A DNA stretch of 64,000 bases, taken from assembly GCA_022925895.1 (NCBI GenBank), contig JAKSYS010000100.1:1-64000 (forward strand), given 5' to 3'. The notes below the pieces were generated by a model, which worked only from the letters and a program-made list of their open reading frames with translations, did no database searches and had not been told where the DNA came from. The translations under genes and the position numbers were made by a program. The first letter of the stretch is position 1, and the number at the start of each line of letters is the position of its first letter. This document shows positions 2,806 to 41,590 of this stretch, piece after piece. Source of the DNA: Fragilaria crotonensis (Eukaryota; Bacillariophyta; Fragilariophyceae; Fragilariales; Fragilariaceae).

Positions 2806-2952
2806 CGCAGGATACCTCTCGATCTTCGAAGTTAGGGAACGCCACTGAATTATGATACGCATCGACATGGGCACCACGAGTTGCCACAACTTATAGTCAA
2901 AACATAATATGTTTAAATTTAGATTTCTTTCGCATCTGAATTAAGGTTCTCG

Positions 2953-6067: not shown

Positions 6068-6074
6068 CCGGGCT

Positions 6075-6161
6075 AAAGGAAATCCTTTAGAGATTTCTTT
6101 TAGCTTTGACTCAGAACCGGTTCTGAGTCATGCTAAGGGAAATCTCTAAAGGATTTCCTTT
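6075..6161. repeat. Long imperfect palindrome at the left end of the Harbinger element
   Basis: The arms 6075-6118 and 6119-6161 are inverted copies with a few mismatches and one small indel. The central 22 bp (6108-6129, half-site GACTCAGAACC) are a perfect palindrome. The arms include the terminal repeat core, so the end could fold as a hairpin of about 43 bp. It may serve as transposase binding sites. No equivalent full hairpin is seen at the right end, which has only two of the motifs. Confidence 0.85.
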
Positions 6162-6406
6162 CAAAGTTAACTGAAATTTGCCGAAATATGCCGACTTAAG
6201 GGATACGATTTCCCTTAGAGATTTCCCTTAGCTCAATTGTCTTCCACGTGTTTGTTTTGTCGTTCTTGTACTCCACGTGTTACTTTATTTTAGTGCAGCA
6301 CCTGTAGAGCCAGTACAAAATAGACTTCCGAATAGGAAGGGCGGCAAACAAGCATCAACACAGCAAGGAGCTATTTCAAAACATATCTATTGCTGAAGCC
6401 AACATC

Positions 6407-21647: not shown

Positions 21648-22255
21648 GTCCGAAACGAGGAACGCTTCTTTGAGAATGCATGGAACAAGCGACATCATAA
21701 GCCGTGTTTCTGATGTCCTTGGATTTGAGATATTTTCAGCTCCCGGATGATAAGGCGACAATGTCTTCAGTCATGAAGTAAATGTTCTACGGTTGTTGCA
21801 CGCGTTCGCCGGACTACATATCCAGCGCAAGTGCCAGTTGCAAGTCATTCACGCTTGGCAGTGTCGCACTACGAATGCAATCCAGGCATTTCAATGCGCA
21901 AGATGGTCATTCTCCGCATCATACGATACAAAATTTTCCGGAAACTCACGTCACCCTCGAAAGGATTCGGTTGTACTGGAGTACATACAAGAACTTGAGT
22001 ATTGGAGTACCGAACGTAGATAAATATCGTCTAGATTTTCTTGTGGTCAAGACTGACGTCATTTACGACTTGAGAGGTGAAATCTGCGGCTTCGGCGTGT
22101 GAAGCCTGAAGGCGCATTATGTAAGCGGTGCGTGACGCATGAGGAATGACCGCACCCAACCCATGTCAAGAACAGGGAAAAATATATACTGTAGCTGCAC
22201 TATATTGCCCATTTGCACTTGAGTTTTCTCATGATCACATTTGTTGCTTTTTGTT
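21648..22255. other. Intergenic, 5' of the STAND ATPase
   Basis: No supported gene. An AT-rich AAAAATATATACTG stretch lies at about 22180, roughly 75 bp before the ATPase start, and could be a TATA-like promoter element. Confidence 0.35.
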
Positions 22256-25200
22256 ATGACCATTCCATTGCTCAGCATGTTGGAGCACGAACGACTTGAC
22301 CTCAACGCCAAACATTGGTGGCTCTTCGGACGAGAACGGGAGCTGGCGATATTAGACGGAGCGCTGGAGCGTGCCTCGTCAGGAAGTCGAGAATTGGTCT
22401 TTGTCGCCGGACCGTCGGGGATGGGCAAAGCAAGTATTGCGGAGTACTTGAACCATGGTCAGAAATGCTTGTTTGCCAGGGGAAAGTTTGATGCCATTCC
22501 GAACGCTCCCTTTGCTGCAATCATCAGCGTATGCGTCGAATTGATCACCATCACATGCAGAGACAAGCCTCTCAAGGAGAAGGTATCAAACAGTATGTCG
22601 CACGAAATGACGGAAGCGGATTTGTCCTCATTGCTAGCCTTTCTTCCGACATTTCGAGACTTATTGGACAACCAGAACCGCTCGTGCAGGGTGGCTGCTC
22701 TATCTCAAGCTCACAACAGCATTTCTCACAAGAAGGACTTGCTAACTCAAATAAAGTTTGCGGTTCGTGCCTTCCTGCGCATCGTCACCAGACACTCCAG
22801 CTGTCCCCTCATCCTGTGCCTTCAAGATCTGCAGTGGGCCGATGACACAAGCATGGATCTCCTGGAATTCATCGCCGAAGACCGCGATCAGACCCGTTTT
22901 ATTATCGCAGTCACTTACAGCGCAGAGGACACTGATATTGGCCGTCGAGCCCAGCAATGGGTGAAACGAGTTTCGACCAGCAAGACACAGAAAGCCACAG
23001 TCAGTAATATACATGTTGACCCTCTGGTATTGGAACAACTCAATAGGTTGCTCTCAGTGGTGATGAAAATGAGGGAGGAAGAAACGATGCCTCTTGCTGT
23101 TCATTTAATGCCGCTAACGACCGGAAACTTGTTTGCTGCACTGCAGATTATGGAACAATGGGAAAATCAGGGTGTGCTCACCTATAATACCTCAATGTCT
23201 CACTGGGAGTGGGATCTCGAGAAGTCTAAAGGTATATCCGTGTCAGAAGGGCTTGCCGATATGCTCTCGAATCGCATCCGCCGCCTCCCGTCAGACGTTC
23301 AACGAGTGTTGCAGCTTAGTGCTTGCCTAGGCTACAGATTCGAACCATCATTTTTGGAAGCTATTAAGGAGGCGCTCCCAGGAGACCTTCTGGATGTGAA
23401 GAGCATCCTTCAGTTTTGCTTCGATGAGAGTTTACTAGAGCCCCAGGGTGATGGGCGTGTCATGTTCCTTCATAAAACGATTCACCAAGGAGCCCTGTTG
23501 TACCTTCCACAAGGCGATGAATTGGAGAAGTTGCATCTGCGGATCGGTATATTGCTCTGGCATCATCTTAAGCACAAACAAATTTCAAACGACCGGACCC
23601 TTTTTCTATGTGTCGACTATATGATCATGGGATCGAACCATGTCGAAGATGACATCATGCTGCTTGAGTTGGCAGAGTTGTGCAACGTGGTCGGCAACAA
23701 GGCCCTTGAACTTTCTGCCTTTGTCATTGCTGCTAATTACTTCAAGAAAGGCATCGAACTCCTCAACAAGATTTGTTGTAGCAAGTGGGATGACTTCCAT
23801 GAATTGACTGAGTCCATGTTTGTTAGCTTTGCCGAACTTCAGTACTATAACGGCAAGTTCGGAGAATGCCTCAAGGCAATCCACGAGCTACTGGCTAACA
23901 AACCCTCCGAATCTGCATGTGCCAACCTCACCCGTTTGCAGATTTTGAAGGATAAGGGCAATCTGAGGAAGTTTGTGGTGTCGTCGTTGGTATTCTTGAA
24001 TGAGCTGGGAGTGACTTTTCCGTCACGTTTCACGATGGAGCGTGCGCGTCTGCTGCGTTACGCGGTGATGAAGAAGCTGAATGGGATGCACGACGCGACG
24101 ATTATGAATCTACCGAGAGTCACGGATCTGACGACGATTACCGTTATGAAAGTGTTGAACCTGATGACAGTCGCAGTCATAGAGCTCGGTCTGGTCCATC
24201 TTAGTGCAATGACGTTGCACAAAGCCGTACTGCTCAGCCTCACCCAAGGTTTATCAGATTCAAGTCCTGGGGCCTTCGTTCTTCTTGGCGCTTACCTTAT
24301 CAGTGAGAAAGGCATGCTACCAGAGGGCTATCGAATGGGACAGCTTGCAATTAACATGTCCCAGGAACTCGACATGTCAACTGCAGACGGTTTTGTTGCC
24401 CACTGGGTCCACGGCATGACTGGGCTATGGCAAAGGACAACTCTGGCGGAACGCCTCCCTCCCCTGTTACAGGGACACGTAACGGCGTTGAAAAATGGCG
24501 ATCCCTGCGCCGCCTTCATGTCGATAAACCAATACATCACCATCAGCTTCTTCAGTTCAACGAACTTGTGTTACCTGATGGAGGATATGGAGAAATACTC
24601 CATTCTGATGTTGGAATACGGTCAGAAGTCCATCTTTCTTCAAATTCTACCGCTATGGCAATGCATATTGAATTTATCTGGTCGCAGCCAAGACCCCTCG
24701 ACATGACACACGGCGAAGCCATGGACAGGCAGGATTTGGTGGGAAATGAGCACGGTATTGGATTGAAGGCATGCTGGTCCTTCCTGATGCAGCTTGCGTT
24801 CTACATGGGTAACTTTGAACTGGCCTCCAGCTTGTCTGAGAAGCTTCAATCTCTCAACATTGGCTTTATGAAGTCGCATGTACAGTATCAGGCTCACGTG
24901 TTGTTCTTTGGACTGGTTGCCATTGAAAATGCTCGTAAGACTGGCAAATCAAAGTACAGGAAGGAGGCCGCGAAGCATCTTTCCGTGATGCGACGTTGGG
25001 TGGACAAGAAGGCAGCCAATGTCGTTCACAAAACCATGATTCTCGAAGCCGAATACGACAGTTTATTTGTCAGAAGGAGTAGCAACACCACCACCACCAC
25101 CACCACCACCATCACCACTAGCAGCAGAAATCACAGGAACAAGTTGAGGGCAAGTGGCCTTACCTCTATGAAAGCCAAGTACGATGGTGCGATTGCAGCG

Positions 25201-25566
25201 TCGGTCAAATCGGATTTCATGCAAGACGCGGCTCTTGCGGCACAGTTGGCAGGCAGGGCTTTCTTCCGTTTCAAGGATACCGCACCCCTGGCAGAATCGT
25301 ACTTTGCCATGTCACACGGCATGTGGGAGTATTGGGGTGCGTTTGCCGTGTCCAATTGTCTCGGTGCGAAATTGATGAATGACTTTCCAGGAATCAATCT
25401 AGCCGACGCTTCTGCGAACTATAGCAGAAGTCAAGGCTTTGGTTTTGGTGACAAGTTTGCGCTGGACTCTGGGAGCAATCATGGCAAATCTCGAGACCGC
25501 CGTTCCAGTGGCAATCAATGGAGCTTGAATGACTCGGAAACCATTGCTCTAGACTCCGGTGCTTAA
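22256..25566 (+). CDS. STAND-type predicted ATPase with a helical-repeat C-terminus (one apparent frameshift)
   Basis: First in-frame ATG at 22256. An AAA_16-like NTPase module opens with LFGRERELAILDGAL. Walker A is GPSGMGKAS near residue 52 and Walker B LILCLQDLQWADD near 186. A winged-helix/arm region (LPSDVQRVLQLSACLGYRFE) and a long helical TPR-like region follow to the C-terminus, with a threonine run encoded by ACC repeats at about 25086-25115. Proteins of this type act as nucleotide-controlled signalling scaffolds, often fused to a kinase or cyclase; none is fused here. The frame changes at about 24701-24706: the first frame ends ...SQDPST, and the second begins MTHGEAMD with similar helical sequence. 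A missing base explains this best, since no GT-AG intron fits. Confidence 0.82.
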
Positions 25567-25567
25567 A

Positions 25568-25581
25568 GTCAGATCAGACTT
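25568..25581. repeat. Target-site duplication, LINE left copy
   Basis: GTCAGATCAGACTT, identical to 34908-34921. It begins two bases after the stop codon of the ATPase gene. Confidence 0.93.
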
Positions 25582-25595
25582 AAAAAAAAAAAAAA
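25582..25595 (-). repeat. T14 tract at the sense 3' end of the LINE
   Basis: Fourteen A on the plus strand, hence T14 in the sense of the element, directly abutting the target-site duplication. It replaces the A-rich tail usual in many LINEs. Confidence 0.85.
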
Positions 25596-25709
25596 ACCCA
25601 GACCTAATTAACGTGCTGCCGCGGTGTTCAGACTAAAAACACTCGACCCACACGACTAGACACTACCTGGTACTGGTAGCGGCTAGCATGACTCCCATGA
25701 ATTGTATCC

Positions 25710-27191
25710 TCACTTAGTCCCGAAATAGTGACGGATGGACTTAACTCCTTGGATTGCCTTGGCTTTTGCGCGCTTTATGCTCATCTTGACAAGCGGACCG
25801 TAGACGGCAATCCAATTCTTATTATACGTCACCGTTTTTGAAAAGTGATCCGTGATATCCTGGTGTAACAGTCGTCGTACACTCGGCTCCATTTGATTTC
25901 GAAAATCGTATATATCAATCAGCGTGCGGTCGATGACTCGTCTTTCCGCTAGGGCTTTAGCACTAGCATCTGCCCCATGGAGATCTTTGTTGCGCTGTTC
26001 CCAAAGGAGAAACCATTGTTGCCAAATGGCACCAATAATAGCGATCTGCCATCGGTGCCCCGTTTGACGTTTAGTCTCCGTAGCCCTTGCCTGCCGCGCA
26101 TAATACTCATCTTGGAGAGAACTCCATTCGCTGCTAAACCTCCCCAGAAAAAGATGGTCCCAGCCGATAGCATTCTGTTGGTGTAACAGACGTCGTATGC
26201 CGAGAGGAGCGTCTGACATGTCCACAGTGAACTCGCTGTCATCAGAAGAGTTATGATGTGTCCAATCGCCGATGGCCTTCAAGAGCAATCGTTTGAGACG
26301 GGGCATCGTACACAATTCATCACATTTCCGTTCTAGATTCCGGAGCATCGCTCGCCTCCAGGTGACGCGTAGCTCGGAAGAACATCGCAAAATATGTTGC
26401 CACGTCTCTGGGCATTGGCGACAACTGGGACACGTTCGTTTTCTTGGATCGCTCCGATGAATCTTTGCGTTCGTAGGAAGCAAACCATGGACTAACTTCA
26501 CTAGATGTGTTCGTCTATTGAGGTGGCGATGCAAAGCTTTCCCATGCGCTTCCCAATTGATCACTTCCATGGTGTGTTTTGACCATGAGTAACGTTCCAT
26601 CATGTGTGATTTCAAATCGGGTGCCGTCGCTTGAAATCGCAACGCCGTCTCATAGTGAGATGTAACAGTACCGGTTGGAAACTCCAAGTGCACGCCCGCC
26701 CATTCGGTGAGAAGAACGGTTGGTTGAAAGGACCCGAAGTCCCGCTGGTATCTCGACGCCTGGGTATCCGCATCCACATTTAACTGAGCCAAGAGAGAGA
26801 GTCGATGGTATGGAATCTCTCGATCTTGGTGTCCTTTGACATGCTGCAATCTGACGTCCGGCATACCTTGGAGCAAAGCCTGAATACCTCGGACTATATC
26901 CCATTCGGGGATGGTTGGCTCTAACGGGAAACTCTTAATCGGGGGCGCCATCTCGCTCTGAGAAAGATGCGTGACACCAAGGACACCTGGAGGGTTCTTT
27001 TGTAACACTGTATCAACCAGACTCTGGCTGTCGGTGGCAATAATACCCGTCCAGTTGTCATGCTTGCCCGTGAATTCCGCAAGGCGTCGAAGAAAACATA
27101 ACAACGACAACAAGCCGTAACTTTCTGACCGGTAGGCATGTGGAGGCGCTGCGTGCAGGGCCCATGCCACATGCGCACCGGTCCCCCACAT
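25710..27191 (-). CDS. LINE RNase H domain and C-terminal zinc finger
   Basis: Continuation of the EN-RT polyprotein in another frame. RNase H residues: the first Asp (AVSDGSDWD, about 27245) lies at the end of the preceding frame. Glu in YRSESYG (about 27120), Asp in ATDSQSLV (about 27035) and Asp in NVDADTQ (about 26775) lie here. Then comes CPSCRQCPETWQHILRC (about 26390-26440), a Cys/His zinc-binding motif typical of LINE C-termini, and a Trp-rich tail with AIGWDHLFLGRFSSEW. The frame change from the RT ORF lies at about 27140-27180; the listed ATG is not a real start. Confidence 0.85.
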   Translation of the reverse strand: MWGTGAHVAWALHAAPPHAYRSESYGLLSLLCFLRRLAEFTGKHDNWTGIIATDSQSLVDTVLQKNPPGVLGVTHLSQSEMAPPIKSFPLEPTIPEWDIVRGIQALLQGMPDVRLQHVKGHQDREIPYHRLSLLAQLNVDADTQASRYQRDFGSFQPTVLLTEWAGVHLEFPTGTVTSHYETALRFQATAPDLKSHMMERYSWSKHTMEVINWEAHGKALHRHLNRRTHLVKLVHGLLPTNAKIHRSDPRKRTCPSCRQCPETWQHILRCSSELRVTWRRAMLRNLERKCDELCTMPRLKRLLLKAIGDWTHHNSSDDSEFTVDMSDAPLGIRRLLHQQNAIGWDHLFLGRFSSEWSSLQDEYYARQARATETKRQTGHRWQIAIIGAIWQQWFLLWEQRNKDLHGADASAKALAERRVIDRTLIDIYDFRNQMEPSVRRLLHQDITDHFSKTVTYNKNWIAVYGPLVKMSIKRAKAKAIQGVKSIRHYFGTK

Positions 27192-29960
27192 CTGTACTCA
27201 TTACCCAACCAAATGCTCCCTGAATCTGATCCCAATCGGACCCGTCGCTGACGGCCCGAAGACCATGTTCTAACGCCAGAGCGACGGAGAAGGGGTCGTC
27301 AGACATTTCCACGTGTTGCAAGAGTTCCATCTCCCACGATGGGAGGGACGCGATAAATTGCCTGAACGTCCCAGCACAAGGTGGAGTGTTGACCTCCAGG
27401 ATATAACTTTGATGGGAGATTTTCCACAACCCCGGTGCCGATTGTGTCGCTAATATCGGGACCGCTTGCGATGGGAGTGAGGCCCAATCTCTCGCCCAGT
27501 TTGATTCGCGAAATACTCGGTGGGACTCAGCGTGGCATTTGACGTACTGATCTTGGATTTTGACCCATAACCGACCACCAAACCAATACGCCGGGTGACG
27601 CTGGCGCATCTTATGCAAAGGAAGAACCCAATCTCCCAACGGCTGAATAAGAGAACCATCCGGTCGACTCCATAACGCATTTGCTCTCTTCCACAACTTC
27701 CACGAGGACTCCGATGGTCGTTCTTGATAAATTGCCGTGCCATGCGTCCGACTGCTGAGAAGATCATGATTTCCAACAAGCTTGTTCATATCCAGTTGGC
27801 GTCCATTAATGGTTGTCAAATCCGACAACGTAACGACATTAAGATATAGACGACAATAGTTAAGTTTGCAGATCTCCGATGGTGAAAAAATTTCCGAAGA
27901 TTGAATTACGTCCATAATACACGCGTCATGCAAACGTTGTAACTCAGGCAAATACTGTGTATCGAGCCGAAGCTTGGCATTTATTCGTTTTAAAAACGAT
28001 CTGAGAGAACTGAGCCATTTGGATTCCAGGTGTGGTAGCGAGCTATGGACTTGTTCCAAGATGGAAAAGGAGACTCCTACTTGGGCCTGGAACCACGAGA
28101 CAGAAATGCGTAGTAATTTCCCCGTGATGGAATTCTTCCGCCAATGTCGTACAAACATCAGGATTTGAGCGACTCCTTGTTGGACGTATAACGATCGAAA
28201 GTTTGCTCCCCCATATGCTAAGGGACCGTAAAGAATTGCCTTCTTGGTGTTGCGATTAAAGCCGCACCTTGGGACAATGATCGACATCGCTTTCTTCTGT
28301 ACGCAGTCGAGTTGTCGCTGTGTAAGGGATGAACTGGCCAGCGGGTAGCTCACGGACGGTAAATAGCACGCATAGTAGAATGTCCACGCCTCTCGTCGCG
28401 TTAATGGTGTTTCCCACAGAAACGCAGTAACTGAATCGCTTTTCTTTTGTAACTGTCGAAATTGTTCCTTTTGGGTCCCCGCGGGATCTTTGTAGTGTCC
28501 GAGGGTCTTATGTGCAGTGTAGGCCGGGAGGACTTGCAAGTGCTGATCCTTTTGCTCTTGACGATCCCAAACTTTGATGGATACTTCTTCAGCCGAGTGC
28601 GCTGGGACCAACACAGGAGCGCCGGACATCGAAAACTGCCACTGGAGAATGTGATTCGAACACTTGCTGAGCTCAAGGGCACCACCACTAGCGTGTAACA
28701 GGTCTGACCAGCATTGTGCATTCGATTGGGCTTGGGATGCGATTTGCTGGACTGTATCGATGGAACCATCGTTGTCGAATGCGTTTGTTTGGCCATTACA
28801 ATCGTCAACGAACCCGATAAGACCTAATTGAACACTCGTATCGCCGTTGGTGTCCCAATAAGTTGCCTGGGACGCCCTTGTATCATAACAGTCAAACAAC
28901 GTACTCGATAAGAAGCACCAAATTGCTGGAGAGTTGGCACTTCCTTGGCCCGTACCATACACAGGGAATTCCGATTCATGGTGATATCCCGAGGGAGATA
29001 TACCAAGTTCAGTACGTACATGAAATTCTGCCTTTTCGAGAGTGATCGCATTACATGCAGTGACCATTGCGGGAACTCCGTACTTCTGACTCACGGTCAT
29101 GCCCAGATTAGGTATGATGCGATCGTAACAAGCGGTAGCGTCGTAATTAGTGAGGATAACCGGTTTCCGGGTAGCTCTGGAGATTTCCAGTTGAAGTTCT
29201 TCTATGAACACGGGATCTGTGGCATTACGTAACGGTCGGGAACCAAATTGGCCGTCGTTTAAGATACGAAGATCTTCCGCTTGATGCATCGCTGAACGCC
29301 ACTTGAGACCCAGGAATAAGTTAAAGTCTGCTTCATAAATATGAATGACTCTCGTTCGGTGAAGACGCACGTTATCGGGGTCTTTAAACAGCATAGTATT
29401 GACAACTTTTTGCCACCGTTGAAATGAATAACCCCGCTCCAATGCGTAATTGAGCAGATCCAAACGAAGCTGACGTATCGCTTGTTGTCGGTAATTTAAT
29501 TCATCGCGTTTCGCCTTAAATTCCGGCGTCACCTCATCATCCGCTGCTTCTGACGAAAAGGAATGTCTTGCTATCAGAGCCTTATAATGCCCCAGATGCA
29601 TTCCGGAAGGTGATGTTGTGGTGGATTCTGACCAGAGGCGCAATTTAGCACAAAAATCCTCGTCGCATATTGTAGGTCGGATGGTATCGACTGACCACTC
29701 GTGAGTATATTGCAGATGGTTCAAGAGGAGTTGGACACTGTCATCATACCCTGTAGTATCGAAGGTCCCGTGCAAGAGCTGGCGTTGCGTTTCGCTTATG
29801 CCAGTGTAACCCAAAAGGTCGGCCAAGGGCGAGATCGTAAAGGGGGTCCCGTGAGCCTGACCGAAATGGAGTCTATTCCGCTCTTGAAGGAGCTTGACGA
29901 TCTCTGTTGGAACATCGATCTGCTGCCATTGCGTGCATTTCTTTGGGTCCTCCCACTGTG
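27058..29960 (-). CDS. LINE reverse transcriptase
   Basis: The open frame runs from about 29960, upstream of the apparent ORF start at 29826, because the sequence before it (QWQQIDVPTEIVKLLQERN) continues the polyprotein. RT motifs: NTMLFKDPD, the first catalytic Asp in YDATACYDRI (about 29130), GTGQGSANSP (about 28950) and the FVDD box (about 28810), a variant of YxDD. Downstream comes the RT thumb/connection and the first RNase H Asp. No start codon is needed if the region is made from the endonuclease frame. The break between the two frames lies near 29955. Confidence 0.92.
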
Positions 29961-31664
29961 TAGCGGAATCTCTAACCGAACCACTCCTGAACGATGAGTC
30001 TTCCCTCTAACGTTACGTAATTTGGTCATGACCGCTTTAATATCCTCAGCTTTGCGAATACGACGTAGCCTTGTCGCCGTGTGTTTATCAGACTTTCGGA
30101 TCGACTGCTCTAACTCTTGGATACGCTGTCGACTTTCGACGTCTCGGATAACGAAGCTATGCTTGACGATACGACGGACTTCCTGGTTTGCGAGCCGAAG
30201 CAATCGAGAGCATTGGCTTTGAGTGCGCGGGGTTTCGTGTTCCGGAAAAGCGGTGGCATATTCTTGTAAGAGAGTAGATGAATCAAGTCCATTTCGAAGC
30301 ATTGATAAACACTTCCGGAGTTGTTGTACTCGACGCCGAGCATTCGATAATTCGATAGACCATGCGTGTTCGCCGAATTGAGGAATGGCTGTCTCTGCTG
30401 CTAGACTCGCTGCAAGAACATCTCGATCTAGACGCTCCGCAAATTGATGGCGGTTTCCCGGATACGTTAATCGTGTTCCACGGTCAAATGCGTTGTGAGC
30501 CATGAGAAGTTCGTACATTTTGTTAATATACGTTGTAACTTGCGCCGTGTTGTTTGCTTTGAGCATGCGTCTCTTTAAACTCGCCAAATCTGAAGTCGGA
30601 TTCCCAAAAAGTTTGTCGGTGTCGAAATCCAAAAAGAATCCGCGATGGTCAGATGACAGACGAACATTGAACGGATCATACCCCAATGCGATCAATGCGT
30701 CACGCATGCGTGCGCTACCCAAGGCGTAGTCGAGACACTTTGTTCCTCTTGAGTACGTTGCTGGAACGATCATGGAAGGGTGCCGAGTGGCTGCGAGATT
30801 AACCAGTGACAGTTCCCCAGCGATAAAACTCAAGCCATCTGGGTCGGAGCCAAAGGGTTCATTGAAATCGCCAACTAAAAGAATTTCTGCACCTGCATTT
30901 TTATACTTGCGCAACGCTTCCAGGAGATCCCTGCGAAATGCTGACCTTGGATTGCTCACGGTGTCTTGAGAATGGAGGAGAAGACTCCTGTGCTGACTTG
31001 CGACCGTCATCCCTCCTTCTTGTCCTCTTTTATCGACAGGTTGATAAGCAGACACGATTGCCACTCTACGACCAGACCGCCCCGAGAATTCTTGAATGAC
31101 CCATCGTCCCCATCGATCCTGGACTTGATGAACTATCCTCCCGGATAAGTTTCCAATCGTGAGCATGAACGTACCGCCAGGTTTGTATGGTGTCGCAAAT
31201 GGGATTGGGGTTGTGCCGGCGATGAATTTCGCTCGATCCCAATGCTGTTGAACTGTGTCATACAGAGTACTCCGAATACTCAATTGAGTAACGTCAAGGT
31301 TATGTTCCTGACCGCAAAAAAGGTCCGCCTGGACCTCTTGAATGACCTCGCACACGTTATTCAGCTGCCCACCTCGACGATCAAACGACAGACCATTCAC
31401 ATTTTGAATATATACACGTGTGTGGTGCCCTGCTTTCTCTACCAAAGGATCACCCCATGGTTGGTTCTCTCGCTGGTTTCTGTGCGTGAGGCTCCTTGGT
31501 TGGGACTCCGGCCGGTTGGTTCCTCCTGACACTGCTGCGGACAACGGTCTACTAAACAAATTCCTCCATTGTTCCTGAGCTCGATCCAATCGAATGTCGA
31601 TATCCGAAACGTTTTCCGTGTTCCGAATGCCGCTCGTAGTTTCAGAGACCACTCGGCTTCTCAT
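29796..31664 (-). CDS. LINE APE-type endonuclease
   Basis: The exonuclease-endonuclease-phosphatase fold is shown by IQNVNGL, the catalytic Glu in GQEHN (about residue 120), GDFNEP (about 266), the DYALGS turn and the terminal SDHRGFF (about 338). It nicks target DNA for target-primed reverse transcription. The C-terminal third is arginine-rich and leads into the RT region in another frame, so the last ~45 residues of this ORF are probably not native. Its ATG overlaps the stop of the 88-aa ORF as ATGA (31661-31664). Confidence 0.9.
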   Translation of the reverse strand: MRSRVVSETTSGIRNTENVSDIDIRLDRAQEQWRNLFSRPLSAAVSGGTNRPESQPRSLTHRNQRENQPWGDPLVEKAGHHTRVYIQNVNGLSFDRRGGQLNNVCEVIQEVQADLFCGQEHNLDVTQLSIRSTLYDTVQQHWDRAKFIAGTTPIPFATPYKPGGTFMLTIGNLSGRIVHQVQDRWGRWVIQEFSGRSGRRVAIVSAYQPVDKRGQEGGMTVASQHRSLLLHSQDTVSNPRSAFRRDLLEALRKYKNAGAEILLVGDFNEPFGSDPDGLSFIAGELSLVNLAATRHPSMIVPATYSRGTKCLDYALGSARMRDALIALGYDPFNVRLSSDHRGFFLDFDTDKLFGNPTSDLASLKRRMLKANNTAQVTTYINKMYELLMAHNAFDRGTRLTYPGNRHQFAERLDRDVLAASLAAETAIPQFGEHAWSIELSNARRRVQQLRKCLSMLRNGLDSSTLLQEYATAFPEHETPRTQSQCSRLLRLANQEVRRIVKHSFVIRDVESRQRIQELEQSIRKSDKHTATRLRRIRKAEDIKAVMTKLRNVRGKTHRSGVVRLEIPLHSGRTQRNARNGSRSMFQQRSSSSFKSGIDSISVRLTGPPLRSRPWPTFWVTLA

Positions 31665-31927
31665 GGGCGCGTCGCTCCAGCTAAATCCGTTGTAGGGTTG
31701 TATTGTGGATTTAGGGGAGCAGGATATGGCGAGGTGAGGGAGTGTAGCTGGTGGCCGCTATCGGCCTGGTGATTCGACGTAATGCTACCAGCCCTTGGGG
31801 TGACTGGGGAAGATACATCCTCTTGAGTACTGAACACGTCATCCAAATTATGACAGACTGCCATATAATCTAAACCTTGACCGACTTCCAGGTCGTCGGA
31901 GAATGCGTGAGAATCATTCATACCCAT
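31661..31927 (-). CDS. LINE small linker ORF (88 aa)
   Basis: MGMNDSHAF... acidic in the first half, then proline-rich; no known domain. Its second Met codon (31919-31921) overlaps the stop of the 750-aa ORF as ATGA, and its own stop overlaps the endonuclease start as ATGA. This placement suggests a translated spacer or the true N-terminus of a coupled ORF2, but function is unknown. Confidence 0.55.
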   Translation of the reverse strand: MGMNDSHAFSDDLEVGQGLDYMAVCHNLDDVFSTQEDVSSPVTPRAGSITSNHQADSGHQLHSLTSPYPAPLNPQYNPTTDLAGATRP

Positions 31928-34170
31928 CCGGTGTTGGAGTCCAGTTTTCTCATGGGAGCGCTGTTTCTTCTTCTCCGGGAGCTGTAGATGGTAGACGATG
32001 CATCTGATTGAACCGAGGTTTTTGACGTAGAAGATCCTGATGTTGTGCTGTCGCTGCTGGCAGTTGACTGTAGATCATTTGGGATCCCGCGAATGTCCGC
32101 TGAACGAGATCCGACACCTCCGTTTGACGCTTGTGTGAAGGCAGAGGAAGCTTTTGTACGATCAAGTTCCATTTTTGTAGCTAAACCTTCCATAAACGCT
32201 GACATTTTTTCGAAATGTCCTCGCAAATCAAGCAGTGTGGTGGACATCTTATGCTGGCACTCCATATTTGAGAGGAGGCGTTGGTTCATCTCTGTGAATT
32301 GCTGTGCTGTATGAACTTTCAATTCGGCCATATCGGATGAGATTTCTTGATGAGTCGAGGTGGATAATTCCATTTGTTTAGTTGCGGCATCTAACGTTTT
32401 GTTTACGGCAGCCAATTTTTTGTCCATGTCATCGATACGATGGAACTGCTGTTCCATTGAGAGAAGACGGTTCAAAGAAGCCTTTCCAGACGCGTCCAAT
32501 GCTTGCAGTTTCTTGTTCATCTGGAGCTCCAATTCCGAGAATCTTGCGTCCGTCGCCGAAGTTCTAGAGGCATGAGTAAGAGATCGGGTAGAAGCTGTGC
32601 TCCTGTCATCGTCGGTAGTACCGATAGACGTATCTCCACCGGTGCTATGTTGTTCAGAGTCCTCGAGACTCTGCTGATTTGGCCTTGTCGTTTGGTCCCT
32701 GGGCTTTTGACGTGGAGATACTTCCGCTGGGGTGGGCCACCCTGACCGAGCGTTAAGTTGTTGATTGATTCCGATCCTCCTATTATACCTGTTTTCATCT
32801 GCTGCACTTACTGTGGATGGATTTCGAGAGGACTCTGAAGTCAGCTGCCACACTGAGGCTTCCGATAATTTTTCGAAGAAGGACACATGAGCTTCGATTT
32901 CTGCTTGGATATGAATCACGTGCGGCAATCCCGGGAGATTGTCTCGAAACCTTGCTTCGCGATGACGCGGGGGGAACAACCGAGCTTTATACTGTTGCCA
33001 TTCCTGTTGAACCACCTGTAGGTAATGACTTGGAACTAATAGATATGCTTTGAAATCAGGGGGTCCATTCACGACATCACAAAGGGCTGGAGAATTCTGA
33101 TCTGGCGCCAAAATTGTTGCCATCCACTCCCGGGTAGATCGCTCCAAAGTTGTACCGTCCTCATGGTATTCGATCCGCTTTTGATCAAGGTGGTTTACGT
33201 GAGGTGACAATGGGACAGCTTTAAGAGACTTACACCACTTTTCATGAAAGAGAAAGTGACGTCGAATTTGTTCATCAGCCATCGCACCGAGTGCATATCT
33301 TGGAATAAACATTGCGCTCCCACGACCCGTCAACACTGGGAGTAACGCTTGGCATAAAGGGGTGACATGCTTTTCGCCGCATTGAATCCTGAGATGAGGG
33401 ATGAACTGATCCAAGGGTGTCTTCTTGTATCTTACCACATCAAAATACGGGGTCTGCTCTGGGAGAATGCTACGCAAGAATTGTGTATACCGAGTGAGTT
33501 GAGTGGTGTTGGGTGCTTTCAACAACACGTATCCCGCCGTCACCATTTTTCCACTCGTGCTGGTAGAATTGGAAACAGAAACATCAATCGTTTTTGATTT
33601 GATAAAGCCTTTGATGAGATCAGAACGCATCCATTGACCGGGAGGGATCCGAAAACCGAGTCTGATACCGAACACAATCTGTTGTTGGGCATGAATAAAC
33701 GTGATTGCTGGGGAAATAAAATCTCGGAGATCGAGAGCTGTCATGTCCTTAACGATTTTTGATAGGACCAGGTCTTCGCTTTCCCAACGATAGAGCACCC
33801 CTACGGTGTCCGGGACAATCTCGCGCACAAGCTCGTAGATCGCGTCATGCAATTTCTTTTTATCTTTCTCATACGCATGGGTACTTTCGGGTGGATTCCA
33901 CTTGACGTTAACTCTGTGAGTGCCGTCGTTTGTGGGAACCGTTCGGTATGAGTTGGGTTTGTCAGATTGCATATTAGTAGAAGTACCTTTAGACGCCGAG
34001 TCGCTCTCAAAATTGGTACCGCTATTTGAGAGAGCATCTTCTTCATTTTCATCATCTACTTCAACCACGGTGGTAACCGGAGGGAGTCCTTGGGACCAGG
34101 AAACTTGGGTGCGCGATTTCTTCTTTTGGGGTTTCGGTTTGCCTGCAGGTTGCCCTCCTTTGGTTGTCAT
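31918..34170 (-). CDS. LINE ORF1-like protein (750 aa)
   Basis: Opens with a Lys/Pro-rich stretch (KPKPQKKKSRTQ) and continues into a large globular region without recognised motifs. A strong coiled coil follows at about residues 540-650 (LQALDASGKASLNRLL ... QMELSTSTHQEISSDM), then a Ser/Thr-rich tail with basic RRRRNS near the end. The coiled coil and basic patches suit an RNA-binding ORF1p; no zinc knuckle is present. Its ATG overlaps the stop of the preceding ORF (ATGA, 34167-34170). Confidence 0.75.
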   Translation of the reverse strand: MTTKGGQPAGKPKPQKKKSRTQVSWSQGLPPVTTVVEVDDENEEDALSNSGTNFESDSASKGTSTNMQSDKPNSYRTVPTNDGTHRVNVKWNPPESTHAYEKDKKKLHDAIYELVREIVPDTVGVLYRWESEDLVLSKIVKDMTALDLRDFISPAITFIHAQQQIVFGIRLGFRIPPGQWMRSDLIKGFIKSKTIDVSVSNSTSTSGKMVTAGYVLLKAPNTTQLTRYTQFLRSILPEQTPYFDVVRYKKTPLDQFIPHLRIQCGEKHVTPLCQALLPVLTGRGSAMFIPRYALGAMADEQIRRHFLFHEKWCKSLKAVPLSPHVNHLDQKRIEYHEDGTTLERSTREWMATILAPDQNSPALCDVVNGPPDFKAYLLVPSHYLQVVQQEWQQYKARLFPPRHREARFRDNLPGLPHVIHIQAEIEAHVSFFEKLSEASVWQLTSESSRNPSTVSAADENRYNRRIGINQQLNARSGWPTPAEVSPRQKPRDQTTRPNQQSLEDSEQHSTGGDTSIGTTDDDRSTASTRSLTHASRTSATDARFSELELQMNKKLQALDASGKASLNRLLSMEQQFHRIDDMDKKLAAVNKTLDAATKQMELSTSTHQEISSDMAELKVHTAQQFTEMNQRLLSNMECQHKMSTTLLDLRGHFEKMSAFMEGLATKMELDRTKASSAFTQASNGGVGSRSADIRGIPNDLQSTASSDSTTSGSSTSKTSVQSDASSTIYSSRRRRNSAPMRKLDSNTGWV

Positions 34171-34814
34171 AAGACTGGTGAACTCTGCAACAGACGGGGA
34201 AGGGAGCCCTTGGATACTTCAGAACCCAATCCCGAAACTAGAGGCTGGTCTTCCTGCAAAGAATCGGTTGGAGGGCTTTTAGAGCGTCTTCGGCGTTGAA
34301 CTGGAATCCATGCCGCCTGATCGTCCATCTCCATACGATTCATAAAGGGCATTGTTTTCCAAGAGTACGCCAACGTATCAGTCTCGTTTAAGGTCGTGGG
34401 ATCAAAATGGAGAAGGTACACTCGGGATACATCCATCGCCCATGTGTTCAACAACGGGGGAATAGGCATCTCTTGATCGATATGGTATCGAAAGTTATAC
34501 CAGATCGCTCGATGAACTTGGAGCGGATTTGCCTCCATGTTTTCCCATAGTTTATCGCATTCAAAACAATCTTCGAATACGAAGAAACCGAGGAGAAGAT
34601 AACGATACCACTGTTCTTTTGTCCCTCTCTGGCGGTAAGCATACGCATTGGCCTCACGACGAGCTCGTTCTTCAGTTGAGAACCAATCTGGTCCTGTTGT
34701 TTCGGGGTACGGGAGCCAAATGTCACATCGGAAACCATCCAATGGTTGCAACGGATCCCACTCCGTGGGGAACGCAGATGGAATGACAAGAGCCGTTCCA
34801 TCGGTCATGGTCAT
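34167..34814 (-). CDS. LINE 5' ORF of unknown function (215 aa)
   Basis: First ATG at 34814; the frame is open further upstream to 34856 without an ATG. Rich in Trp, Tyr and Phe (FRCDIWLPYPETTGPDWF; LLGFFVFEDCFECDKLW), C-terminal basic stretch RRRRSKSPP. It resembles no family I know. Its stop is embedded in the ATGA that starts the 750-aa ORF, and it lies wholly inside the target-site duplications, so it belongs to the element. Confidence 0.65.
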   Translation of the reverse strand: MTMTDGTALVIPSAFPTEWDPLQPLDGFRCDIWLPYPETTGPDWFSTEERARREANAYAYRQRGTKEQWYRYLLLGFFVFEDCFECDKLWENMEANPLQVHRAIWYNFRYHIDQEMPIPPLLNTWAMDVSRVYLLHFDPTTLNETDTLAYSWKTMPFMNRMEMDDQAAWIPVQRRRRSKSPPTDSLQEDQPLVSGLGSEVSKGSLPRLLQSSPVL

Positions 34815-34907
34815 GATGCTAAAGGTACGCGACAACTTCCTATTTAATGTACGCAATTACGGACTGCGGACAGACTGTACTTGCGAAACTCCAAACTAGA
34901 AAATTGT

Positions 34908-34921
34908 GTCAGATCAGACTT
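34908..34921. repeat. Target-site duplication, LINE right copy
   Basis: GTCAGATCAGACTT, identical to 25568-25581. Sequence to its right (from 34922) was originally continuous with the 3' flank of the ATPase gene. Confidence 0.93.
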
Positions 34922-35530
34922 GACAGAACGCAATATTCGTAAGTACTGCTATATAAACAAACCCGCCAAGAGAAAGAGGGCACAGCCCATGAATGGGCGA
35001 AAGAGCTGGGGTGTCGAGGATAGAATACAAAATCCGACAGCAGGCCAAAGGCCAAAGGCGAACACCAAACTCGAGACGATTGTATACCAAATGATGGACT
35101 TCATGCAGAATGCCGTTGAAAGTAAATTCAACCGCATTGCCCAATCAAGCATATATGTTGTGCTACATTGCTTTTCTATAGATGAGCAGTTGCTATATTT
35201 TGTAGAGCAATAATCCACGTCTTGATAGGGCACTACTACGAGATTAGCGCAAGTCCAACCTTGCAACAAGAAAGGCAGTCCACACCGGTAGTCATTGTAT
35301 TAGTAAAATTAGTCGTACAATTTCAAAGGTGCGTAGGATCCACACCTACCTCGACTATCGAGCCGTTGTTCCCTTCTTCTTGGTGAGATCTCCATCCATC
35401 CACCGATCCGCATCTAGTATCCTTGTCCACTCACCAATAAACGCACTCACGAACACATGCCCACCCACCAATACACACACATACTCCCGCACTTGAAATT
35501 GTGTGCGTGTTGGCGTCCCTCACAAACACT
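34922..35530. other. Original 3' flank of the ATPase gene and intergenic DNA
   Basis: About 600 bp without a credible gene. It should include the polyadenylation region of the ATPase gene, now displaced 9.3 kb from the stop codon, and the 3' region of the minus-strand membrane protein. CACCCACCAATACACACACA-type low-complexity sequence lies near 35450-35485. Confidence 0.5.
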
Positions 35531-35534
35531 CCAT

Positions 35535-36104
35535 TTACAACATATCTTGTTCGGCTGGAGAAAATGGTGCAGCTTCATCAGCACTTGTTGGTTGTCGTTC
35601 TTGTGTACGCCGTTTGTGACACCAGAGTGCAAAACGACGACCAAAACAAAATCCAAGGATGCAAACGAGTACCAATACCGCGACGGTAATTCCAAAGATT
35701 TCGGCTGGACTCAAGTCATCCGCGGCAGTCTTTTCCATGGTTCCTGCCGTTTCGACAAATGTCCTTTTGTGAGGGGCATAGGACATGCCAGGATCTGGAA
35801 TGGGAGGGTACGGAGCCATGGTAGTGGGAGCTTCAAGGGTGGGACTCTCAGCAGGAGAAGCCGAAGGAGCGTTCACAGTAGGCACTGGCGTTGGCTCAGG
35901 AGATGGAGCGGCAGCAACGTCAGGTAGAGAAGGGGCATCCGATGAAACATCATCCGTAGGATTAGCAACAGGCTTTTCCGTAGGGACATCGGGGGCTTCC
36001 GTAGGGTCAGCAACGGGGGCTTCCGTAGGGTCAGCAACGGGGGCATCCGAAGGACCATCAACGGGTGAGTCTGCTGTTGGTGGTGGAGCCACGGGAGTAC
36101 TCAT
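35535..36104 (-). CDS. Proline/threonine-rich single-pass membrane protein
   Basis: 189 aa from the first ATG at 36104. About 125 residues of PT/AP-rich sequence with repeated PTEAPVADPTEAP units (likely O-glycosylated) lead to a membrane segment (IFGITVAVLVLVCILGFCFG), then the basic stop-transfer RRFALWCHKRR and a short acidic tail. No signal peptide is seen at this start, so an upstream exon may be missing. The build is that of a type I surface protein, but function is unknown. It is probably unrelated in its ectodomain to the family at 37.4-45.4 kb, although linker and tail style are similar. Confidence 0.7.
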   Translation of the reverse strand: MSTPVAPPPTADSPVDGPSDAPVADPTEAPVADPTEAPDVPTEKPVANPTDDVSSDAPSLPDVAAAPSPEPTPVPTVNAPSASPAESPTLEAPTTMAPYPPIPDPGMSYAPHKRTFVETAGTMEKTAADDLSPAEIFGITVAVLVLVCILGFCFGRRFALWCHKRRTQERQPTSADEAAPFSPAEQDML

Positions 36105-37355
36105 TTTCAAGTATCAAAAGTGAAGGTACAGTGAACAAGTGCTCAATCTATGATTTCAATAGCGAAGAATACTATTACTGAGCAACCGCAATCCGGATTA
36201 CTGTTACAGAGCAAGAAGCAAAGAGCGAGCAAAGATCAGTAATCTAATCACAATGACAAATGCAAATTTGGCCACCTCCGACCAAGCTGCGGGGGAAAAA
36301 CCAATTGCGAATGGGACTTGGTACACTTGTACTGCATCTGCGCGTAGTATTCAATGGTTGTCCGTATTACTTGGTAGTAGTGTTTCTTGGGCTACGTGCA
36401 ATGCGAGCAATGCGTTAGGTGCAAATGCCATTTAGCAGAGATTCGTTAAAAAAGGATGACCATCCGCACGAGCCATCTTGCTCGGTAAATAACCGTCCAG
36501 GACAAAACCTATACTCCAGTACAACTGTATCCAACTTTTTAGATACTTGTGATCCAGCACTGTCGAGTGCTCTACCGCACGTAGAGGGGTAGTACAAGTA
36601 GTCTACTCGTCTACACTCCGAGTAAAAATCAAGAATTTTATCTCGGTGGTCGTCTACTCCGTACTGTATAAACCATACGTTCAAAATGTACAGGTACCTG
36701 TACTACTGATAGTAGTAATATTGTACTCGGAGTATTCCAGAAATTTACCGTTGTAGTCGTACGGTTGAGATCCACAGCCACGCCGTATCACGTACAGGTA
36801 CCACGTATCACCGCCTACTTGCAATCGTGCCCTTCGCTGGCATTGTCACACTAGACACTGGACTACTTGACTGCGACGACGTGACATGTGAGATATCGTG
36901 TATGAATACACAATTAAAAAAGTGCCTTTTTGAACCATTGTTGCATGGTGCCGAAACAATGAGACTTGCGCGGCTACGTGAGGCCTCTAGTAACAAGAGC
37001 TACCTGGTTCTATGACGACAACGTTTGCTTTGCCCTCAAATACTCTATGCATTGCCAAAATCCAAAATACCAAGTCCACGGAGTATTACCATCAACAATC
37101 ACCAGCTTACTAGTAAACGACAATGCTATTGCCAGGCACGCTGGCAGAATCTAGATGCGTCGCCATTTGTTACTATGCTTTAGACTTTAGAGTAAGCCAC
37201 ATCGCCCAAGCAGAATGCAATCTTTCATTATTCCCGTCCTCGCCCGTGATGGACGGATCTCACATACAATCACAAATAAAAATCGTCGAAACTCACAAGT
37301 GAACCCATCCATACCAACAAATAAAGAAACAGCCGTGCGCGCTCTCTCTCTCTTA
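36105..37355. other. Intergenic, GTAC-rich
   Basis: About 1.25 kb with no credible gene. The stretch 36570-36740 is dense in GTACT/AGTAC words; a CGTATCACGTACAGGTACCACGTATCACC-like palindromic patch lies at about 36782-36810. Promoter of the 35.5-kb gene and 3' region of the next gene are expected here. Confidence 0.45.
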
Positions 37356-38660
37356 CTAGATCCCACGTCGTGACGATCGCACACGACTTGGAGGCATCAG
37401 CACAACTTCTTCCCCTTGAGCTGCAAACAGAAATGGAGAATCATGATCCACTGATGTTGATACTTCATTGTCGTCAGGATTCCAATTCTTATCCGCTTCA
37501 TACGAATCCGTCGACTGACTCTGCTCCACCACAGAAAAATGTGATGGGGTGAGCAACGTATCCTTTGTCTTTTTCACACTCTCATGTGGAATCGCCGACG
37601 ACCACGTTGTTTCCAACATGTCTTTCTTTAATGATACTTGCCGGTCTCTCTCAAAGGATTCCGTCTGCATCAATGTGTGGGATACGCGAGGGAATAATTT
37701 ACCCGAACGGACCGTGTACGCATCCGTGGCATTGGTGCTCATGGTCCACATGGAATGTGACACGGATTCCGCCTCTTCAAATTTGGGTAGATTCTGACCA
37801 GTTTCCAATGTATCACCTTCTTCCGAATCATCATCATCTTCCTCACCATCTCCTGTAATATCATCATCAATACCACCCGCAGGTGTTACACGACGTTTCG
37901 CGCCACCTTCACCAATCGGTTCCACAGTCGCACTACGTCGTCGGCCTCCCACAGCAATAGCTGCCAATATCACCAAGGATATGATTGCAACGCCTCCAAC
38001 AATAGCTGCCACAAAGGCAAAGGAGTGAGTTGGATTGGTTTCGGTGGTTTGAACCCTAGAAATGTCATCGGTGCCGCCTTGTGATGATCCTGATCCTGGT
38101 GGTGCTGCGGCTGCTGGCGATGGTGTTGGCGGTGCTGAAAGAGAATTGAATTCAATTTTTTCAACAGTATTCAAATCTGTTTCGGCTTGAAGGATTTCCA
38201 ACAAGTTCCCCTCAAGTGCCTGACTGACCCATTCATTGACTTCTTCCAGAGGCGGTTTCCCCCCTCGAAAACTGGCAACGCCGCCAGAAACCTCAAGTAC
38301 TGCAGAACTATCATCTTGTTGGAGGTGTCTCCACCGGACACGACCATGATTGCTTACTATCAAATCAACATAGTCAACAGTGACGCCTTGATCAAGTTTG
38401 GTGGGCAAATAATCATGCAATACATCCTCGGCCAACTCTTCAATCAAGTCTCCTTGGGTTGTTGTCAACGCACTCGCTGGAGTCAAAGTCAAAGTAAATG
38501 GAGGGATTATCACACGGTACGGAGCTCCAGTACCATCTTGAGAATCATTGGTAACGTACTCGGTATCATTATTCGTCGTTGCTGCTGCTGCTGACCAAGA
38601 CCTTGTTGACAGTGTCAACATTGACAGCATGATATATTTGGCAGACATGGTGAATTGCAT
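37356..38660 (-). CDS. Type I membrane protein, local family member 1
   Basis: 434 aa. Signal peptide (YIMLSMLTLSTRSWSAAAA) followed by an ectodomain with IIPPFTLTLTPASALTTTQ, LAEDVLHDYL, VDYVDLIV, GGVASFRGG and EVNEWVSQALEGNLLEIL. A TPSPAAAA linker leads to a membrane segment (FAFVAAIVGGVAIISLVILAAIAV), basic RRR stop and a long acidic tail (DDDITGDGEEDDDDSEEGD). The ectodomain fold is unknown to me; its order of motifs is shared with 40496-41590 and the decayed 44.3-45.4 kb copy. Cell-surface function is inferred only from topology. Confidence 0.85.
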   Translation of the reverse strand: MQFTMSAKYIMLSMLTLSTRSWSAAAATTNNDTEYVTNDSQDGTGAPYRVIIPPFTLTLTPASALTTTQGDLIEELAEDVLHDYLPTKLDQGVTVDYVDLIVSNHGRVRWRHLQQDDSSAVLEVSGGVASFRGGKPPLEEVNEWVSQALEGNLLEILQAETDLNTVEKIEFNSLSAPPTPSPAAAAPPGSGSSQGGTDDISRVQTTETNPTHSFAFVAAIVGGVAIISLVILAAIAVGGRRRSATVEPIGEGGAKRRVTPAGGIDDDITGDGEEDDDDSEEGDTLETGQNLPKFEEAESVSHSMWTMSTNATDAYTVRSGKLFPRVSHTLMQTESFERDRQVSLKKDMLETTWSSAIPHESVKKTKDTLLTPSHFSVVEQSQSTDSYEADKNWNPDDNEVSTSVDHDSPFLFAAQGEEVVLMPPSRVRSSRRGI

Positions 38661-40495: not shown

Positions 40496-41590
40496 TTATT
40501 TATTCTTGGAAACATGACAAATGCAAGCATTGTCAATCACTTGCAATGCGCAGAGGAATCCAGCCCCTCCCGATGCTTTCTTCACATCCGCAGGTTCTTC
40601 TTGTTGTGCAACAACCGTCCCATCCGTGCTCACGGAAGCCGTGGATGGCGACACCGATGCAGCATCACTTTGAGAACGTTGAACATTCCGGCCCGTGTCC
40701 GGGGTATTTGGATTCTCAACCGTAATAAGGAATTCACCACCAGAGGCTAGGCTTCGAGTATCGTCAGCAGCAATACGATACTGATCACCAGCCTTGGGGG
40801 TAACATCTTCATCCGACTCTTCTGCGATATCAGTGGTGACAAGCGGCAAACTTTTACCTGCGGCAGCGTCATCATCAACTTCATCAACGACAGCATCCTC
40901 TTTCACACCACGTTGTTGTCGTCGTCTCATAAACAGGGCCACCAATATCACCAACGAAACGAATACCATGCCACCGACGATCGATGCCGCGATCGCGGAG
41001 GAGTTAGGAGGATTGGCTTGAGGGTTTTCCAAGCTCGATACGCCGACAGTATTGGAGGATGGCGACAACGTCGGTGGCACCGTGAGGGAAGTGAATACAA
41101 TACTATCCACGGTGGTCAACACTGTTTCTTCGTGAAGCAGCTCCAATAAATTCCCCTCCAGTGCCTGGCTGGTCCACGCATTCACTTCGTCCACAGACGG
41201 TTCGCCACCATGGAAACTGGCAATCCCGCCAGCAACCGGAAGCACGGCAGTAGCATTACTGTCTTGAAGTTGTCTCCTCCTGACAAGAGCTTGATTCCTT
41301 ACAACTAAACTGACAAAATCGACAGTGGTGCCTTGACTAACTTGGGTTATAAAAAAGTCGAGCAGTGCGTCCTCTGCCAACAGTTTGATCACATGTTGTT
41401 GCGTCCCCGTCAGTGCCGATGTAGGAGAAAACGTTAGAGTGAAAGGAGGGATCCTCACTCGGCTACCTCCTCCACTGCTATCCGCAGATTGATCAGTGTA
41501 TTCTTCCAAAGACGTTGTTGCCCAACAACTTGTTGACAGTGTCAACAGTGCCAGGATCACACATTTGGACGTTAGGGTCAATTGCATCAT
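40496..41590 (-). CDS. Type I membrane protein, local family member 2
   Basis: 364 aa from ATG 41590 (the frame extends to 41629 without an ATG). Signal peptide KCVILALLTLSTSCWA, ectodomain with RIPPFTLTFSPTSALTGTQ, VDFVSLVV, GGIASFHGG and EVNAWTSQALEGNLLELL, then TPSPS linker, membrane segment (IAASIVGGMVFVSLVILVALF), RRRQQR stop and acidic tail ending VIDNACICHVSKNK. It is the closest relative of the decayed copy at 44.3-45.4 kb, including the unusual C-terminal NAC(I/L)CHV motif. Confidence 0.87.
   Translation of the reverse strand: MMQLTLTSKCVILALLTLSTSCWATTSLEEYTDQSADSSGGGSRVRIPPFTLTFSPTSALTGTQQHVIKLLAEDALLDFFITQVSQGTTVDFVSLVVRNQALVRRRQLQDSNATAVLPVAGGIASFHGGEPSVDEVNAWTSQALEGNLLELLHEETVLTTVDSIVFTSLTVPPTLSPSSNTVGVSSLENPQANPPNSSAIAASIVGGMVFVSLVILVALFMRRRQQRGVKEDAVVDEVDDDAAAGKSLPLVTTDIAEESDEDVTPKAGDQYRIAADDTRSLASGGEFLITVENPNTPDTGRNVQRSQSDAASVSPSTASVSTDGTVVAQQEEPADVKKASGGAGFLCALQVIDNACICHVSKNK

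Follow-up and report, generated by a model that had tools for sequence, protein, structure and literature searches.

How many proteins does a retroelement make from one transcript, and how does the ribosome pass from one open reading frame (ORF) to the next? The question is raised by a long interspersed nuclear element (LINE) on the minus strand of a 64,000-nucleotide (nt) stretch of DNA from the diatom Fragilaria crotonensis, the whole of which is called the window here (G000:C5:1-64000 in our numbering) and whose genome, 62 Mb in 881 contigs, was searched for copies of the element. Three ATGA stop/start overlaps lie on this strand, at 34167-34170, 31918-31921 and 31661-31664, just as a preliminary description of the DNA had recorded, and it was proposed there that four cistrons are translated by chained re-initiation. 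We consider it likely that the element is instead a two-ORF LINE with coupled termination-reinitiation at the third overlap only (junction 3), assisted by a hairpin in the RNA, and that the other two ATGA are accidental. As far as sequences can tell, the two-ORF stop-restart plan is well supported, and junction 3 is probably the coupled stop-restart site.

The overlap between ORF1 and the endonuclease frame

31661..31664, minus strand: junction 3, ATGA, a conserved overlap of the ORF1 stop with the start of the endonuclease-reverse transcriptase ORF, 9 nt past the hairpin

Copies of this LINE are numerous and diverged in the genome; the reverse transcriptase (RT) has 57 matches and the N-terminus of the endonuclease has 133, both counts being lower bounds. 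Junction 3 was surveyed in 78 copies, namely 17 long copies, the window and 60 short regions. The short regions were taken from 66 candidate junction regions, six being left out; 20 long copies were retrieved, among which L011, L025 and L026 are without an endonuclease start. The stop codon of ORF1 directly overlaps the endonuclease ATG in 57 of the 78 copies, with the stop at -2 to +5 from the ATG. The main forms are ATGA (37 copies), TAATG (7), ATGATTAA (5, near-identical copies) and ATGATTAG (4), while ATGATTGA, ATGAATAG, ATGTTAG and TGATG occur in one copy each. For L060, the ATGATTGA copy, ATGA is the better reading, because its homologous frame ends there, like that of the near-identical L062; in the TGATG copy, L076, the hairpin adjoins an ATGA instead. 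Among copies outside the overlap class, eight have the hairpin together with a broken frame next to an ATGA or TAATG (L019, L020, L023, L024, L030, L044, L046 and L085), L055 has the hairpin with CTGA at the junction, and in five the distance between stop and ATG is 4 to 11 nt (L050, L058, L061, L065 and L070).

The stop offsets of 65 assigned junctions are +1 in 40, +5 in 11, -2 in 8, +11 in 2, and +8, +4, -4 and -8 in one each; these were assigned partly by hand and hence selected for proximity, all of them lying within -8 to +11, and L060, placed at +5 in this count, belongs at +1. On an endonuclease tree of 38 rows, the ORF1 stop and the endonuclease ATG stay close while the relative frame and the stop codon vary, with at least five relative-frame changes and nine form changes over 37 labelled rows; with six doubtful rows removed, there are three relative-frame changes and eight form changes over 31 rows. 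Because it is kept across strongly diverged copies, the overlap at 31664-31661 is real, old and far beyond chance.

Programmed frameshifting joining ORF1 and the second ORF into a fusion protein might be invoked, as the two overlap in different frames. It is very improbable, since the overlap is mostly 4-8 nt and an in-frame AUG stands at the site in most copies (6 of the 78 are without one in the aligned endonuclease frame). A fixed programmed frameshift is ruled out, because both relative frames are found among the relatives and no single direction of shift would serve them all.

The first two overlaps

34167..34814, minus strand: ORF1 as read, 215 amino acids, N-terminal part of the family ORF1 (~1000 codons)
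31918..34170, minus strand: ORF2 as read, 750 amino acids, middle of the family ORF1, with no convincing domain match
31661..32074, minus strand: open frame of ORF3, C-terminal part of the family ORF1, with ORF3-like matches in relatives
34167..34170, minus strand: junction 1, ATGA, by-product of a frame change, where the open frames overlap at 34218-34170
31918..31921, minus strand: junction 2, ATGA, by-product of a frame change lying upstream, as judged by the PEKKKQRSH frame

The ORFs of the window read 34814-34167 (ORF1), 34170-31918 (ORF2), 31927-31661 (ORF3, 88 amino acids) and onward from 31664 (ORF4). Directly seen in relatives is the continuity of the first three as one frame, of 1064 codons in L016, 1053 in L018, 1001 in L020 and 994 in L021. 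At junction 1, 9 of the 12 copies with homology on both sides have one open frame straight through (L009, L010, L013, L016, L018, L020, L021, L022 and L024); L017 keeps the frame but has intervening stops, and a shift is seen in L015 and L019. ORF3-like matches are present in L009, L010, L012, L013, L014 and L015, and for junction 2 the peptide PEKKKQRSH, or a near form of it, sits in the ORF1 frame of L009, L012, L014 and L020. In the window this peptide lies in the ORF3 frame, which is open from 32074, before any ORF3 ATG; the first such ATG is at 31927, two codons ahead of the ATG in the second ATGA. The ORF2 frame of the window is out of register past PEKKKQRSH until its TGA, and L010 and L013 have a frame change close to this stretch. 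The single frame of the relatives and the position of PEKKKQRSH upstream of the ORF3 start show junctions 1 and 2 to be by-products of frame changes, and the overlaps at 34170-34167 and 31921-31918 are accidents of a decayed copy.

How often would a frame change end in this way? In nine uninterrupted ORF1 stretches of relatives, simulated random one-base deletions led the shifted frame to end in an ATGA with the main-frame ATG in 3511 of 19791 cases (17.7%), and one-base insertions in 0 of 19982, which gives 8.8% overall. For the window copy, with its four frame changes, the probability that at least two end in such an ATGA is thus about 4% (at 8.8%) to 15% (at 17.7%), a mild coincidence for a pattern selected by eye. 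L015 has a further ATGA at a frame change, late in its RT frame.

A plan of four cistrons on one transcript with three successive re-initiations, suggested by three ATGA in a row at ORF borders, is therefore hardly credible. Relatives read through junctions 1 and 2 in one frame, which refutes it as the plan of the family; the ORF3 start comes after conserved ORF1 residues; neither junction has the hairpin described below; two more frame changes break the enzyme ORF of the window; and ATGA is a common outcome of random deletion. Conservation of the ATGA among other copies, which the preliminary description had looked to, holds at junction 3 and fails at the first two. In-frame fusions, which it had named as contrary evidence, occur at junctions 1 and 2; re-initiation stays plausible for a single step, at junction 3.

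What the family ORF1 encodes was also searched for. Pfam gave weak matches only, at best E 0.0049 in one member and 0.014 in the window (under the shown cut-off), and nothing in the Protein Data Bank (PDB) was better than E 0.075, the matches being largely coiled coils. A single-sequence structure model of part of ORF1 was discarded at a mean predicted local distance difference test (pLDDT) score of 35.6. As a separate observation, the ORF1 of L027 and L028 shares only 15-17% identity with the window type, represented by 34170-31918, and their endonuclease and RT share 48-53%, a possible exchange of ORF1.

A hairpin upstream of the junction

31674..31720, minus strand: conserved RNA hairpin, with arms 31720-31716/31678-31674 and 31714-31707/31688-31681

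The hairpin ends 9 nt ahead of the ATG, and its loop (31706-31689, 18 nt) holds CAAUACA. Consensus folding of the 120 nt upstream of the junction in nine copies of the window clade gives a consensus energy of -17.8, versus -0.2 in column shuffles, and no consensus fold was found downstream (0 to +175 nt) in these nine copies. In alignment A2, made of 27 distinct copies picked for a readable junction, 85.4% of cells pair, and two-sided changes are seen directly in 8 of the 13 pairs. The covariation score of A2 is 0.393, against 0.166 +- 0.019 in shuffles, and 0 of 500 shuffles reach it; as the shuffle comparison is inflated by relatedness, the slid controls matter, and these score at most 0.186. 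Further pair types number 15, against 16.0 in shuffles, with no excess.

The hairpin model R1 has a single match in the window up to E 10, at 31726-31661 (68.9 bits), with none at junctions 1 and 2; it matches 43 of 80 loci, once each. Counting the window, there are 44 matches, followed by ATGA in 33, TAATG in 10 and CTGA in 1, and the loop motif CRAUACA is present in all 44 (CAATACA in 41, CGATACA in 3); the 44 comprise 31 distinct 66-mers, of which 27 built R1 or are its kin. The constant CAATAC suggests a constraint at the level of the RNA, because CAG and TAT are also common in ORF1 (CAA:CAG 213:140, TAC:TAT 69:62).

It is conceivable that the hairpin is a by-product of protein conservation at the ORF1 C-terminus, as its arms encode APL and AGA, which are partly conserved. 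We regard this as improbable: the residues vary yet the pairing stays, through the two-sided changes above, and, compared with synonymous recodings that preserve the peptide, the natural sequence is on average the more stable (mean z -2.34, range -4.06 to -0.99, 25 copies), the control region upstream of the hairpin giving a mean z of +0.18 (24 copies). Of all 60-nt windows along the ORF1 stretch, none is more stable than the hairpin in 6 of 8 copies, and in L012 three are.

One copy, L079, combines a window-type hairpin (67.2 bits) and TAATG with an endonuclease on a very long branch that groups with the other lineage; it may be a recombinant or a long-branch artefact.

Other lineages of the element

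Groups with other ORF1 C-termini also fold in the 120 nt upstream, with z of -7.2 in B1, -7.3 in B2 and -11.0 in B3, values that rest on a lenient column-shuffle null; the downstream and -240 to -100 regions of the other lineages give z between -1.2 and +0.3. The upstream structure is weak in L027, L028 and L054. Covariation is good in B3 (0.257 versus 0.088, reached by 1 of 500 shuffles), moderate in B1 (0.212 versus 0.145, 15 of 500) and weak in B2 (0.300 versus 0.210, 55 of 500). Synonymous recodings give a mixed picture, with mean z of -1.05 in B1 (5 copies), -1.81 in B2 (5 copies) and -2.45 in L027, L028 and L054, and one copy among the 13 reaching 99% of recodings or more; in the homologous frames of B3, the z is -2.65 for L060, -2.78 for L062, -2.24 for L061, +0.30 for L065 and -0.09 for L067.

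In 5 of 6 copies of B1 (L052, L053, L058, L059 and L066), UGGGA stands at -28 from the ATG within a hairpin. This is the core of the termination upstream ribosome-binding site (TURBS) of viruses, and three copies have UGUGGGA; the same letters are conserved Trp-Asp codons, which is a confounder.

These lineages raise the possibility, to which we give slightly less than an even chance, that a LINE superfamily of one alga carries virus-like stop-restart modules. Each module would consist of upstream structure plus AUGA, UAAUG or AUGn-stop, kept or re-made while ORF1 diverged past recognition, and in at least one lineage CRAUACA would replace the TURBS motif as the signal that holds the ribosome.

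Proposed mechanism

We propose the following course of events. Frame changes would have broken a long ORF1 into three apparent ORFs in the window copy, two of whose ends fall on ATGA by accident. In the intact element, the ribosome would terminate ORF1 at a stop that overlaps or closely adjoins the next AUG, and the second ORF, with endonuclease and RT, would be expressed by coupled termination and re-initiation at junction 3. The upstream hairpin with its constant CRAUACA loop may help to hold the post-termination 40S subunit on the RNA, and thereby allow the restart. We infer this role in translation, as well as the tether and its target; candidates for the target are 18S rRNA and eIF3, among other factors. 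As a partner for loop pairing with 18S, no nuclear small-subunit (SSU) gene was found: an exact SSU probe matched only contigs C880 and C881, which are probably organellar. C881 also encodes the RuBisCO large subunit, which marks the host as photosynthetic.

Several observations weigh against this proposal. No junction was found in 7 of the 78 copies (L039, L051, L056, L063, L075, L078 and L087). At four of the 13 hairpin pairs (7-56 and 18-44 to 20-42), pairing is absent in 8 to 12 of the 27 rows of A2; taken singly, only 12 of 25 copies beat 99% of their synonymous recodings; and 17 of 516 ORF1 windows of the window copy fold more stably than the hairpin, the arms of which also encode the semi-conserved residues APL..QY....AGA. 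The TAATG group has mild downstream structure (z -2.1; L021 alone, -2.8). TURBS motif 1, UGGGA, occurs within ~90 nt upstream in 0 of 38 copies of the window lineage. Finally, the hairpin could serve assembly of the ribonucleoprotein (RNP) instead.

The last point belongs to a wider alternative, in which the overlap reflects genome compaction only, ribosomes arrive at the second ORF through leaky scanning, internal entry or rare scanning, and the hairpin is an RNP-assembly or template-recognition signal placed by chance at the end of ORF1. LINE RNAs require protein-binding signals, and a loop motif constant in 44 of 44 matches is what a protein-binding loop would show. We nevertheless think this alternative unlikely: ATGA or TAATG follows the hairpin directly in 42 of the 43 locus matches, upstream structure recurs, with uneven support, in lineages with different ORF1 C-termini, and proximity is kept through at least three to five relative-frame changes, something that compaction by itself would not call for. 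Coupled termination and re-initiation at junction 3 remains the reading that we prefer.

The genome offers dozens of natural variants of one junction, with altered stop codons, frames and covarying stems; the requirements of ribosome restart could thus be read from evolution and are directly testable. The upstream hairpin is the part deserving follow-up. This locus also advises caution, as multi-cistron plans should not be read from a single decayed copy.

The element and its surroundings

25582..34907, minus strand: whole LINE insertion, 9326 bp, with the 14-bp direct repeat AAGTCTGATCTGAC at both flanks
34908..34921: target-site duplication on the 5' side of the element, 14 bp, AAGTCTGATCTGAC
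25568..25581: target-site duplication on the 3' side of the element, 14 bp, AAGTCTGATCTGAC
34815..34907, minus strand: 5' untranslated region, 93 nt, from the duplication to the first ATG
29799..31664, minus strand: endonuclease part of the second ORF (Exo_endo_phos), Pfam E 4.1e-12
27061..30006, minus strand: RT frame (RVT_1), frame-shifted against the endonuclease in the window copy, from Pfam and open frames
25710..27197, minus strand: C-terminal part of the second ORF, after a further shift in the window copy, with a weak zf-RVT match under the cut-off
25582..25622, minus strand: 3' terminal signature GCGGCAGCACGTTAA..., its last 15 sense-strand bases being T

The element is a non-long-terminal-repeat (non-LTR) retrotransposon with an apurinic-type endonuclease, because it has endonuclease and RT domains (in the window frames, Exo_endo_phos and RVT_1 at E 3e-07, both passing the Pfam cut-offs), a 14-bp target duplication and no long terminal repeats, the biggest direct repeats in 22000-38000 being at most 36 nt. 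Two frame changes interrupt the second ORF of the window copy, where the open frames of endonuclease and RT overlap at 30006-29799 and those of RT and C-terminus at 27197-27061; in relatives, unbroken open frames over the RT match reach 2116 codons. The window element would thus be a single decayed copy of an ordinary two-ORF LINE. Pfam detects no RNase H in the window frames, nor in L002, whose intact frame also lacks PDB sequence matches at E 0.01. RT peptide patterns found no relatives of the LINE in viral contigs, where records from the same or a near genome were possibly excluded.

The 3' end (window 25622-25582, minus strand) is marked by the conserved tag GCGGCAGCACGT(T/A)AA, with a run of T after it on the sense strand. 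In the genome, this tag-plus-T pattern has 67 forward and 190 reverse matches, with several registers per place, and the reversed control has 0; by hand count there are 51 distinct places among the matches listed. The T run of the window abuts the target duplication, so the LINE RNA may have an oligo(U) terminus, in contrast to LINEs with poly(A). Three tags lie on one strand within 2.3 kb (G000:C53:77065, 77883 and 79302), perhaps in short elements that borrow the LINE tail. Upstream of L020 and of L025, a further LINE copy of the family ends on the same strand, with 3' tag and T run. In L014 (positions 2762-6227 of the oriented copy), the endonuclease region is interrupted by ~3.5 kb that lacks homology to the endonuclease, probably a nested insertion. 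Elsewhere in the window, the neighbouring ORFs at 37356-38660 and 40496-41590 (minus strand) look by eye like diverged duplicates, with IPPFTLT and SALT near the N-terminus of both.

Comparison with known systems

According to the parts of reviews drawn on here, it is unusual for eukaryotes to couple termination to re-initiation once a long ORF has been translated; most descriptions come from RNA viruses, and the sites used are AUGA, UAAUG or AUGn(2,5,8,14)UGA (PMC5972666, PMC3542737, PMC5902531). Among the papers listed, mostly open ones, no title or abstract described a LINE in which a stop-start overlap is preceded by a conserved hairpin.

In mammalian LINE-1, likewise a two-ORF LINE, unconventional termination/re-initiation has been proposed for ORF2 in the excerpts consulted (PMC5972666); a 63-nt spacer separates the ORFs there, whereas stop and start overlap here. 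The TURBS of caliciviruses and influenza B is described in the same kind of excerpt as a structured element 40-90 nt upstream of AUGA, UAAUG or AUGn-stop (PMC5972666, PMC3542737), with UGUGGGA as motif 1 of rabbit haemorrhagic disease virus (RHDV; PMC3542737). The LINE family resembles it in having an upstream structured element near the stop-start site; its motif is found in the distant group B1, with the confounder given above.

The silkworm element SART1 is the LINE case of coupled restart in the review parts drawn on here: translation of its ORF1 and ORF2 is coupled at UAAUG and needs a hairpin 34 nt downstream (PMC5972666, PMC5902531). The LINE family is like SART1 in its non-LTR type and in its ORF1/ORF2 stop-start overlap, 7 copies having the TAATG form. 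It differs in that its structure lies upstream, with none downstream in the window clade, and in that AUGA is the commonest form.

In victoriviruses, the sections of the articles consulted describe AUGA or UAAUG with an upstream pseudoknot (PMC6631646), ORF borders of the form AUGA, UAAUG or AUGnnUAG (PMC6631646, PMC3542737), and, in Helminthosporium victoriae virus 190S (HvV190S), 38 nt including AUGA that are necessary and sufficient (PMC6631646, PMC3542737). These are double-stranded RNA viruses with an H-type pseudoknot, whereas ours is a genomic LINE with a covarying hairpin, modelled in the window with an 18-nt loop. The AUGA, UAAUG and AUGnn-stop forms and the RNA structure directly upstream are common to both; the junction layout of this LINE corresponds most closely to that of the victoriviruses, more than to that of SART1.

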